Below are positions 13,534 through 35,215 of a stretch of 37,367 bases of DNA, one piece after another. Below the pieces are notes generated by a model. That model was not told the DNA's origin, ran no database searches, and worked only from the letters and a program-made list of their open reading frames with translations. The position numbers and the translations under genes were made by a program. Source of the stretch: Leuconostoc mesenteroides subsp. mesenteroides ATCC 8293 (GTDB lineage Bacteria; Bacillota; Bacilli; Lactobacillales; Lactobacillaceae); contig NC_008496.1 in assembly GCF_000014445.1 (NCBI RefSeq), positions 1-37,367 of the forward strand, read 5' to 3'. Numbering within the stretch: the first letter of the stretch is position 1; each line of letters opens with the position of its first letter.

Positions 13534-13656
13534 ATCACGCTTTATCCTGTATAATAGTTCAAGTAGAGAAGTTAAGGCGGTGGCTATTTCCTTAAGGGGG
13601 GTGGTGCTTATGGTGTAAAAACTATAAACTCACATTCTAGGAAAGGAGTAGCCCAA

Positions 13657-13761
13657 GTGTCCGTATCGGACGCTTTACAGCTTATGCTAATGTTTGGTAC
13701 TTTCATAGTTACCTTACTAGCATTAGTTGTTGAGTTGATTAAAAACCAACAAAAAAAATAA
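13657..13761 (+). CDS. Fst-like / holin-like type I toxin
   Basis: A 34-residue peptide starting at GTG with GAAAGGAG 8 nt upstream. It reads SVSDALQLMLMFGTFIVTLL then ALVVELIKNQQKK: one transmembrane helix followed by a short basic tail, the typical form of Fst/Ldr-type toxins that depolarise the membrane. A long leader (from about 13560, after TATAAT at 13549) contains TAAGGCGGTG, complementary to ACCGCCTTA just after the stop, so the mRNA ends can pair as in known fst systems. The gene is too short for most ORF callers. Its convergent antisense RNA is annotated separately. Confidence 0.8.
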   Translation: MSVSDALQLMLMFGTFIVTLLALVVELIKNQQKK

Positions 13762-13868
13762 CCGCCTTAGCTCTGCCAAGCTAGCGGTTATTTAATCGTT
13801 TTAAGTTTGCCACCGTCTTATACGGCTCTATAATGGGAAGTCTTGTTAGCGCAAGGCTTCCTTTTTCT
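13757..13868 (-). ncRNA. Convergent antisense RNA (antitoxin) of the Fst-like toxin
   Basis: On the minus strand an extended -10 (TGtTATAAT, 13875-13880) with TTCTCA 17 nt upstream predicts a start near 13868. The RNA would run left into the toxin terminator, overlapping the toxin mRNA 3' end. It contains an internal hairpin GGAAGCCTTG/CAAGACTTCC. This is the RNAI/RNAII layout of pAD1 par. Ends are estimates. Confidence 0.55.
13761..13793. terminator. Shared bidirectional terminator of the toxin-antitoxin pair
   Basis: AACCGCCTTAGCT pairs with AGCTAGCGGTT around a short loop, with A-rich and U-rich flanks for both strands. Confidence 0.7.
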
Positions 13869-13987
13869 GTATTCATTATAACATGCCTAGCCAAAATTGA
13901 GAAACAAAGTATTTATGCGCCTCTATATAGCAACGCTTAGCCATTCAATTTAGCCTTACATTTCAAGGGCTATTATATTATCTAAAT

Positions 13988-29268: not shown

Positions 29269-30110
29269 TTGAGCGGCCATCTTACTAGCCAAAAAATAGT
29301 CCGTAATGTGGGATTGCCGCTCGTTAACCAATTTTTAGCACAAGGCTACGCGCTTGTGCGTATTTTAAGTGCACTTAAAATCAAACCTAGTACCTATTAC
29401 AACTGGCGCCATTGGCAGCCCAGTCGACAAGAAAAGCGTAGAGAATCTCTAAAACCTTATATTTTAGACGTTTGGAAAACCTTTAAATTTTATGGTTATC
29501 GCCGTATCGCTGCTTATAGTCAACAAACCGACGGTCCGAAAGTATCTGGGTATATGACACTCAAATTGATGCGTGAATTAGGGATTAAATCCCGCATGCA
29601 AAAACGTTATCGCAAGCCAAAAACTGTGGTGACTGTTGATCAAAAGCCCAATTTGATTAGACACTTGCATGATTTGAGCGGTGTTTGGCAAACAGATATC
29701 ACTTATATTCAGTTGACTAATCACAGATGGGTCTATTTAGCGACCGTTTTGGATCCTGAGAAGAGAAAAGTATTGGGCTATAAAATTGGCGATACAATGA
29801 CAGCCGAGCTAGCCACAAGTGCCTTACAGATGGCTTTAGATAAGCATCGAAAGCCATTAATTATTCATTCAGATATGGGGTCACATACACGAGTGCTGAA
29901 TTTAATATTAAATGTCAAAATTATGGCTTGAAACATTCATATTCACTCAAAGGACATCCATACGATAATGGCCGTATGGAAGCATTTCATTCAATATTGA
30001 AACGTGAAGAGGTGTATTTGAAGGCATACGAAACATTAACGCAAGTCCAAGCAGCCATTGGTTGGTATATCAATTTTTATAATCGCAATCGTATCTCAAA
30101 TGTTGCCTAA
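29269..30110 (+). pseudogene. IS-B copy 2 orfB, frameshifted transposase
   Basis: Opens at TTG 29269 and keeps both catalytic Asp residues, but loses the frame at 29881-29887 (TCACATACAC instead of TCACAATACAC in the intact copy). The Glu-containing tail (29928-30110, GRMEAFHSILKREEVYLKAY) is out of frame. Same defect as copy 1. Confidence 0.9.
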
Positions 30111-30524: not shown

Positions 30525-30836
30525 ACAGGCTCTGCGAGGCGCGTCATCGACAAGCGATGACCGTAGCGTTTCCCCTTCCTGCTGGGGAAACTGCTATTTT
30601 ACAGCGCCACTTATCCGGCTTGTAAAACCTCCGGCGGGTCACGCCGTGACAGGGCAATTTATCATTGCAGGATCACTTTCAGTGAGAGCATGTCATGCAG
30701 AACGTTACCCGCGTGGGGCAAGCTGATGTCAGCTTAACCACATTAAAATAATCGGTAAACGTAAGTGTATAATAACAAAAAAATTGTAGTGGACTATCGC
30801 AATTAATAGGTGTTATACAATAAAAGCAAACAAAAA
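30525..30836. other. Non-coding region behind oriT
   Basis: No gene. GC-richer sequence with hairpins such as GGCGGGTCACGCC and TTTCCCCTTCC..GGGGAAA (about 30569-30591), of the kind found beside mob genes on rolling-circle plasmids; possibly a relic of a single-strand origin. Confidence 0.35.
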
Positions 30837-30858
30837 GGCACCCTTAAGGTGCCCACAT
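30837..30858 (-). terminator. Terminator of the type I toxin mRNA
   Basis: GGCACC pairs with GGTGCC around CTTAA. On the minus strand it is followed by five T. Confidence 0.75.
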
Positions 30859-30862
30859 TATT

Positions 30863-30967
30863 TTAACGATCATTAAGATCATCAAAATAACGTTTGATTG
30901 CGAACGTCACAACAGCAACACAGATTGCGTTAAACAATTGTGTGAGTTCTTGAAAAAAGTAAATCAT
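30863..30967 (-). CDS. Type I toxin peptide (Fst-like), with divergent antisense RNA
   Basis: A 34-residue peptide on the minus strand. ATG at 30967 has AAGGAGG (30984-30978) 10 nt upstream. It reads MIYFFQELTQLFNAICVAVV then TFAIKRYFDDLNDR: an aromatic start, one membrane helix with a Cys, and a charged tail, as in Fst/Ldr toxins. It lies 5 bases from its terminator. A -10 like TATACT (about 31024-31019) on the same strand would give a leader of about 45 nt. The plus-strand small RNA at 31069-31137 is a diverged copy of the antisense of this leader, so it could block the ribosome binding site and start codon. Too short for standard ORF calling. Confidence 0.75.
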   Translation of the reverse strand: MIYFFQELTQLFNAICVAVVTFAIKRYFDDLNDR

Positions 30968-31033
30968 GGAGTCTAAACCTCCTTGCCGTTGCAGTTATAG
31001 TAGGAAACAACAGCTTTTTAAGTATATCATGTT

Positions 31034-31062
31034 TTGAAATACCAATAATATAATGTTATAAT
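31034..31062 (+). promoter_or_regulatory. Strong promoter for the antitoxin-like small RNA
   Basis: TTGAAA (31034-31039), a 17-nt spacer and a perfect TATAAT (31057-31062), facing right, away from the toxin gene. Confidence 0.8.
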
Positions 31063-31068
31063 GTTAAT

Positions 31069-31137
31069 AGAAGAAAGTACATGGAGACTAACCTCTCTAG
31101 TAAAAAGGGCTAGTGCGTAGGAACACCAGCTCTTTTT
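31069..31137 (+). ncRNA. Small RNA (about 70 nt), candidate trans-acting antitoxin
   Basis: It runs from the promoter above to an intrinsic terminator GGGCTAGTG...CACCAGCTC plus T-run (31107-31140). CATGGAGACTAACCTCTCT near its 5' end resembles the complement of the toxin start codon and ribosome binding site (CATGGAGTCTAAACCTCCTT at 30965-30984), and GTAGGAACACCAGCT resembles 30998-31012. It would pair imperfectly with the toxin leader. Confidence 0.65.
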
Positions 31138-34372: not shown

Positions 34373-35215
34373 TTGAGCGGCCATCTTACTAGCCAAAAAA
34401 TAGTCCGTAATGTGGGATTGCCGCTCGTTAACCAATTTTTAGCACAAGGCTACGCGCTTGTGCGTATTTTAAGTGCACTTAAAATCAAACCTAGTACCTA
34501 TTACAACTGGCGCCATTGGCAGCCCAGTCGACAAGAAAAGCGTAGAGAATCTCTAAAACCTTATATTTTAGACGTTTGGAAAACCTTTAAATTTTATGGT
34601 TATCGCCGTATTGCTGCTTATAGTCAACAAACCGACGGGCCGAAAGTATCTGAGTATATGACACTCAAATTGATGCGTGAATTAGAGATTAAATCCCGCA
34701 TGCAAAAACGTTATCGCAAGCCAAAAACTGTGGCGACTGTTGATCAAAAGCCCAATTTGATTAGACACTTGCATGATTTGAGCGGTGTTTGGCAAACAGA
34801 TATCACTTATATTCAGTTGACTAATCACAGATGGGTCTATTTAGCGACCGTTCTGAACCCTGAGAAGAGAAAAGTATTAGGCTATAAAATTAGCGATACA
34901 ATGACAGCCAAGCTAGCCACAAGTGCCTTACAGATGGCGTTAGATAAGCATCGAAAGCCATTAATTATTCATTCAGATATGGGGTCACAATACACGAGTG
35001 CTGAGTTTAATATTAAATGCCAAAATTATGGCTTGAAACATTCTTATTCACTCAAAGGACATCCGTACGATAATGGCCGTATGGAAGCGTTTCATTCAAT
35101 ATTGAAGCGTGAAGAGGTGTATTTGAAGGCATACCAAACATTAACTGAAGTCCAAGCAGCCATTGGTTGGTATATCAATCTTTATAATAGTAATCGTATC
35201 TCAAATGTTGCCTAA
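34373..35215 (+). CDS. IS-B orfB, intact DDE transposase
   Basis: 280 residues from a TTG. HTH_21-like KFYGYRRIAAYSQQ, and the rve core with D (VWQTDITYIQL), D (IIHSDMGSQYTS) and E (RMEAFHSILKREE). The reading frame is the same as orfA and is separated from it only by TGA CAA GCA, not the -1 frame usual for IS3 elements. This is the only copy that can supply a transposase, and it may have moved the defective copies in trans. Confidence 0.9.
   Translation: MSGHLTSQKIVRNVGLPLVNQFLAQGYALVRILSALKIKPSTYYNWRHWQPSRQEKRRESLKPYILDVWKTFKFYGYRRIAAYSQQTDGPKVSEYMTLKLMRELEIKSRMQKRYRKPKTVATVDQKPNLIRHLHDLSGVWQTDITYIQLTNHRWVYLATVLNPEKRKVLGYKISDTMTAKLATSALQMALDKHRKPLIIHSDMGSQYTSAEFNIKCQNYGLKHSYSLKGHPYDNGRMEAFHSILKREEVYLKAYQTLTEVQAAIGWYINLYNSNRISNVA

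Follow-up and report, generated by a model that had tools for sequence, protein, structure and literature searches.

A putative type I toxin-antitoxin locus with a divergent antitoxin RNA derived from a duplicated toxin leader on a Leuconostoc mesenteroides plasmid

Background

The par locus of plasmid pAD1 (Fst/RNA II) joins a short membrane toxin with a charged tail to a short RNA antitoxin; the toxin mRNA has a 5' hairpin, and direct repeats in the DNA (DRa/DRb), lying over the Shine-Dalgarno (SD) sequence and start codon, let the two RNAs pair in trans at the start region (PMC7472228; this and the other sources are cited from the portions available). Its promoters are convergent and a bidirectional terminator common to both RNAs is the site of first contact, and these, like every other structural feature of par, were highly conserved in the relatives examined (PMC7472228). 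Here we describe a locus on a 37-kb plasmid of Leuconostoc mesenteroides subsp. mesenteroides ATCC 8293 (NC_008496.1, positions 1 to 37,367, hereafter the window; contig 1 of a two-contig genome) that is like par in its toxin, its short RNA, its repeats and its 5' hairpin, but in which the toxin gene and the antitoxin RNA gene are divergent and each has its own terminator. We think it likely, reading from the sequence, that this is a type I toxin-antitoxin module whose antitoxin is a divergent, trans-acting RNA derived from a duplicated toxin leader.

Divergent genes with a short RNA complementary to the toxin 5' untranslated region (UTR) are described for tisB/istR-1, zor/orz, shoB/ohsC and dinQ/agrB, and the divergent loci named in the available text of PMC4147584 are from Escherichia coli only; a likeness of layout to tisB/istR and zor/orz, proposed in an earlier note on this DNA, is borne out by that source. 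TimP/TimR of Salmonella is likewise a membrane peptide repressed by a divergently encoded RNA (PMC8167048), but its host is Gram-negative and the likeness is one of description, not of sequence. Most Gram-positive type I systems, not all, overlap at their 3' ends (PMC8167048). Lpt/RNAII of Lacticaseibacillus, homologous to Fst, is also a plasmid-borne type I system of lactic acid bacteria (PMC8309996), but is a par-type locus according to reviews; for Lptlike2 a convergent antitoxin was sought and none was found (PMC8003834). In the open-access literature searched, which excludes subscription papers and was available in portions, we found no divergent par-type locus and no Leuconostoc type I locus. 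Pairing in trans through repeats (DRa/DRb) is already the rule in par (PMC7472228), so that what is new here is where the duplicate lies and not the duplication itself.

Results and discussion

A diverged copy of the toxin leader lies upstream of the toxin gene

The minus-strand toxin reading frame proposed in the earlier note was recovered, with AAGGAGG preceding its ATG, and encodes a short peptide that reads as a hydrophobic helix followed by a charged tail. The toxins of the divergent E. coli systems are not known to be related to it. The short RNA runs rightwards, away from the toxin gene, as the note had it, and ends in a strong terminator of its own whose hairpin has 12 pairs in the predicted fold. 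Its promoter, called perfect in the note, agrees with the consensus at 11 of 12 positions, the mismatch lying in the -35 box (TTGAAA); four sites in the window reach 11/12 when both strands are counted, and among these four only the antitoxin promoter has the TG extension.

Along its length the RNA repeats, in direct orientation and with divergence, the plus strand of the toxin leader between codon 6 and the mRNA 5' end: the 5' tail of the RNA corresponds to codons 6-1, start codon and SD, the terminator hairpin to the mRNA 5' hairpin. A copy of the strand opposite the SD and start codon had been recognised in the earlier note and withstands shuffle tests (of 2000 shuffles per allele class, 0, 0, 1, 0 and 0 reach the RNA/leader local alignment score in the five classes); the inclusion of codons 1-6 and of the 5' hairpin had gone unmentioned. 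The duplex prediction that the note suggested as a check is also favourable, since the energy of the tail duplex with its own mRNA is reached by 0 of 1000 shuffles in each of the five classes, and the predicted duplex extends over SD and AUG. The locus combines a divergent antitoxin complementary to the 5' UTR, the trait of the E. coli systems, with the direct repeats and trans complementarity at SD and start codon of the Fst/Ldr family; the convergent promoters and bidirectional terminator of that family are absent from it.

Predicted folds place a hairpin over the SD in the window and in the other four allele classes, and a 5' hairpin with its loop free in all five. Co-folding (classes A, C and D) puts the tail over SD and start codon and leaves both hairpins, that at the mRNA 5' end and that of the terminator, in place. 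The terminator loop GUAGGAA is identical to leader positions 31000-31006 and is therefore complementary to the mRNA loop UUCCUAC, from which we infer a loop-loop kissing contact, as the co-folding program cannot represent kissing. Complementarity of the antitoxin RNA to the toxin terminator, the contact site in par, does not exceed chance (123 of 300 shuffles do as well). The toxin mRNA would start near 31014. Coordinates are collected in Table 1.

Table 1. Positions of the predicted features of the toxin-antitoxin locus in the window
Feature	Position	Strand	Remarks
Toxin open reading frame (ORF) MIYFFQELTQLFNAICVAVVTFAIKRYFDDLNDR	30863-30967	minus	34 aa; ATG start at 30967, stop 30863-30865
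Toxin mRNA intrinsic terminator	30836-30854	minus	
SD hairpin GGAG-guuuaga-CUCC	30968-30982	minus	predicted fold; directly ahead of start codon
Toxin mRNA 5' hairpin	30985-31014	minus	predicted folds; loop contains UUCCUAC (31000-31006)
Putative toxin -10 box TATACT, extended (TG ahead), weak -35	31021-31026	minus	read by eye
Antitoxin promoter TTGAAA-17-TATAAT, extended -10 (TG)	31034-31062	plus	promoter scan
Antitoxin RNA, ~69 nt	31068-31137	plus	start inferred from promoter
Antitoxin 5' tail	31070-31100	plus	diverged copy of the plus strand at 30952-30983, opposite codons 1-6, start codon and SD
Antitoxin terminator hairpin	31102-31137	plus	loop GUAGGAA at 31117-31123 repeats 31000-31006

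The best Rfam match of the antitoxin, rli28, reaches 28.5 bits where the gathering score is 45 (E 0.13, or 0.044 when a shorter stretch is searched); it was treated as chance because the alignment is mostly promoter.

Conservation and distribution

Sixteen plasmid loci were fetched (11 full, 5 truncated) and further loci were added from genomes, giving 41 full toxin copies with 24 distinct toxin sequences and 18 distinct leader-to-RNA stretches; among the 41 the window is counted twice (L001, L027), and other repeats are possible, the genomes having perhaps been drawn from two collections. Truncated plasmid copies (L007-L011) and C-terminal pieces (L034, L035, L061) were kept out of the full-locus counts, and one place matched by both the toxin profile and the RNA model searches (G136:C13) lies outside the fetched full-locus set. 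The RNA is found at the same place and in the same orientation in 41 of 41 full copies, and the start-region copy lies upstream of the toxin in all 24 distinct loci (equalled by no more than 3 of 500 shuffles in any of them). Source records include Leuconostoc, Fructobacillus, Periweissella, Furfurilactobacillus, Enterococcus faecalis and others. A search of 397 Lactobacillaceae genomes with the toxin profile gave 17 strong places in 16 genomes, the window's own among them, and a search with the antitoxin RNA model, which was built partly from these places, gave the same 17. An order-wide scan of 295 genomes with the RNA model was strong only in three genomes of the window's genus (next best, 39.2 bits).

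Carriers of the toxin/RNA pair include plasmids of kimchi bacteria: 62 plasmid records match the locus, 48 of them over at least 80% of the query, and the 381-nt locus stretch is unchanged in at least 10 named plasmid records of 37-44 kb among the matches listed. All 11 fetched full plasmid loci lack an annotation of the toxin in the plasmid gene table, which is itself incomplete. In the truncated copies L007-L011 agreement with the window covers the C-terminal part of the toxin and the terminator but does not extend to the start region or the antitoxin part.

The weaker matches that were read yielded no further pairs. Those of the RNA model below 45 bits (L089, L090, L091, L103, L104, L105) have no toxin copy beside them, and the weak toxin-profile matches L036, L038, L044 and L046 show no recognisable locus (L037, L039-L043 and L045 were left unread). 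L089 (44.7 bits) is an orphan copy of the antitoxin terminator hairpin, ~3 kb from L115, a toxin locus of the convergent type that has a premature stop (genome G251, contig C3). In viral contigs, none of 87 pattern-matching stretches encodes a toxin relative, and 11 loop-motif matches were judged chance from a rough estimate, uninspected; phage records gave a single weak match.

Judged by its substitutions, the toxin ORF is under purifying selection: the proportion of synonymous differences (pS) exceeds that of non-synonymous differences (pN) in 20 of 21 allele pairs, and between the window and L006 there are 9 synonymous and 2 non-synonymous differences (pS 0.43, pN 0.02). No Pfam or NCBIfam match was found for the toxin, and a search of solved structures with its alignment A2 returned 16 matches, none meaningful (best E 0.45).

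Co-change of the two copies

Predicted tail/mRNA energies of own pairs in the five allele classes are -31.9, -32.9, -32.1, -33.6 and -36.8 kcal/mol; non-own pairs that involve class C (L002) or D (L003) lie between -11.3 and -20.9 kcal/mol, and those among the close classes A, B and E between -25.5 and -38.1 kcal/mol. The loops change together as well: in L002, GUGGGAA replaces GUAGGAA in the leader and in the RNA loop alike, and the L002 loop pairs with its own mRNA at -11.1, other classes' loops with the L002 mRNA at -4.5. Antitoxins of clearly different allele classes may no longer recognise each other's mRNA and would then form incompatibility-like specificity groups.

Co-change is also seen in a 10-nt block over codons 3-6, where 78 of 80 positions are paired over 8 distinct leader/RNA combinations and the same base change appears in both copies at 7 of 10 columns; re-dealing the block gives a mean of 64.4 paired positions, with 144 of 40320 permutations as good, a count that ignores kinship. 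Between the window and L006 the antitoxin follows the toxin's synonymous differences within this block.

Possible convergent relatives in the same bacterial family

A search that started from a weak match, L047, led to another toxin family with 17 loci (L112-L128, L112 being the place of L047) in 14 of the 397 genomes, which we name and read as convergent Fst-type loci of Lactobacillaceae. They share with the window's family the bacterial family, a toxin tail (KYFDD) and an SD/start repeat on the mRNA and antitoxin sides, but their repeat lies downstream of the toxin: in the 11 of 17 loci taken into the layout test (L113, L122, L123, L124, L125 and L127 were left out; L118 and L126 look identical in the stretch shown) it was found downstream in 7 (at most 4 of 500 shuffles) and upstream in none; its downstream match was not significant in L115 (ORF broken), L116, L118 and L126. 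The toxin of L047, the one tested, has no Pfam or NCBIfam match, and the alignment of the convergent toxin family (A5) matched no solved structure. In L112, two facing terminators with complementary loops (CUGCCAG/CUGGCAG) were read by eye.

Comparison of the window's toxin family with A5 by hhalign gives a probability of 94.6 and a score of 32.7, mainly from the tail KRYFDD; none of 150 shuffles of all columns and none of 150 shuffles of the tail scored as high, but 5 of 150 did when columns 2-24 only were shuffled. Together with the contrast in layout, this match makes it likely, short of proof, that the window locus is a rearrangement of a convergent ancestor.

Weighing the alternatives

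The relation of the toxin to Fst, asserted in the earlier note, is a loose one. A hydrophobic helix followed by a charged C-terminus in a small protein, as in Fst/Ldr, and direct repeats speak for it, and the likeness lies mainly in the tail. A conserved W between helix and tail defines Fst/Ldr toxins, yet FstpAD1 itself has V there, and the motif P/D/S/TXXXG(C) occurs in the majority of members (PMC7472228). Neither the W nor the motif is present in the six aligned alleles, and this absence is one of several points that weigh against our interpretation. Most copies are near-identical plasmid relatives, so that only about four allele classes are independent. Plasmid addiction is a putative role, and two copies appear chromosomal (G085 C1, G328 C6). 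The L006/L033 pair has pN above pS, and pN is 0.22 against a pS of only 0.32 between the window and L003. Specificity is incomplete, because the class E antitoxin is predicted to bind class B mRNA (-38.1) more strongly than the mRNA of its own class (-36.8) and the L002 loop keeps some pairing with other mRNAs, at about -8.9. L015, an apparent recombinant with 8 of 10 pairs in the codons 3-6 block, suggests exchange between the repeats, and gene conversion alone could maintain their likeness.

That last point is the core of one rival account, in which the RNA is a spare leader copy kept alike by gene conversion, with no antitoxin function; the recombination apparent in L015 speaks for it, but in the distinct haplotypes listed the copy retains promoter-like and terminator sequences next to it, the duplex energies are better than those of shuffles, and the two copies differ elsewhere, and we regard the account as very unlikely. 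It is similarly hard to credit that this is an ordinary par/Fst locus with its true antitoxin convergent and downstream, the upstream RNA being a side product. Apparently related toxins are indeed convergent, and in L005, L030, L033 and L006 the left flank, past the toxin terminator, contains a further, weak match to the leader (6, 8, 21 and 29 of 500 shuffles as good), as does the different flank of L019 (14 of 500). The window, however, has no downstream copy (440 of 500 shuffles as good), the remaining 18 of 24 distinct loci have no downstream match under 50 of 500 shuffles, the left flanks of L002, L003, L006, L032 and L060 are unlike that of the window and, wholly or nearly, unlike each other, and the upstream RNA is retained throughout. 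The left-flank matches of L005, L006, L030 and L033 are perhaps a relic of a convergent antitoxin, with no promoter seen by eye; L004 has a flank similar to theirs, without a significant leader match.

The ORF might instead encode a small regulatory membrane peptide under antisense RNA control, as its lack of a toxin-family match and the two chromosomal-looking copies would allow; the mostly plasmid-borne occurrence of the copies, the mobilisation gene adjoining the locus in 6 of the 16 fetched plasmid loci (3 of these 6 truncated) and a peptide tail resembling those of Fst-type toxins make this very improbable. A type I layout, a divergent RNA, a leader duplication and predicted pairing in trans, all put forward in the earlier note, are the features that the sequence supports.

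Plasmid setting

The window appears to carry a second type I system at 13541-13878, comprising a Hol_Tox peptide (13657-13758, plus strand; Pfam PF16935, E 1.8e-16), an rli28 match (13541-13723, plus) and a RatA match (13789-13878, minus), which we would name a TxpA/RatA-type convergent pair. Between 25599 and 37347, Pfam identifies a ClC channel, a Na/H exchanger, a multicopper oxidase, a thioredoxin and a disulfide oxidoreductase with a rhodanese domain, along with two transposase pairs that we call IS3-like, the copy at 29269-29931 being shorter than that at 34373-35215.

Proposed mechanism, origin and implications

For the divergent locus, we propose that first contact would be a kissing interaction between the terminator loop CGUAGGAA of the RNA and the 5'-hairpin loop UUCCUAC of the toxin mRNA, after which the antitoxin 5' tail would open the SD hairpin and cover SD, start codon and codons 1-6. 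The tail duplex would block the ribosome; the predicted complex preserves both the 5' hairpin of the mRNA and the terminator hairpin of the antitoxin. On plasmid loss the short RNA would be the first to decay, and the membrane peptide would stop growth, amounting to plasmid addiction. Such a locus probably arose by recombination of par-type repeats flanking the toxin gene, which would have put the antitoxin half, formerly downstream of the terminator, upstream of the toxin promoter; with the shared terminator lost, a DRa-like hairpin may have become the antitoxin's own terminator, and the 5' hairpin may have replaced the toxin terminator as the site of first contact. Taken as a single joint reading (a circularly permuted par, divergent, in a Gram-positive host, with kissing-loop contact at the 5' hairpin and mutually non-recognising allele classes), this proposal seems to us evenly poised between right and wrong.

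If it is true, par-type antitoxins that work through direct repeats are open to rearrangement into the divergent layout familiar from enterics, can do without the shared terminator and can shift their first contact to another loop. The natural allele classes, with their co-changed loops and tails, would offer ready-made pairs for work on the specificity of RNA antitoxins, and screens restricted to convergent antisense RNAs would overlook such loci.
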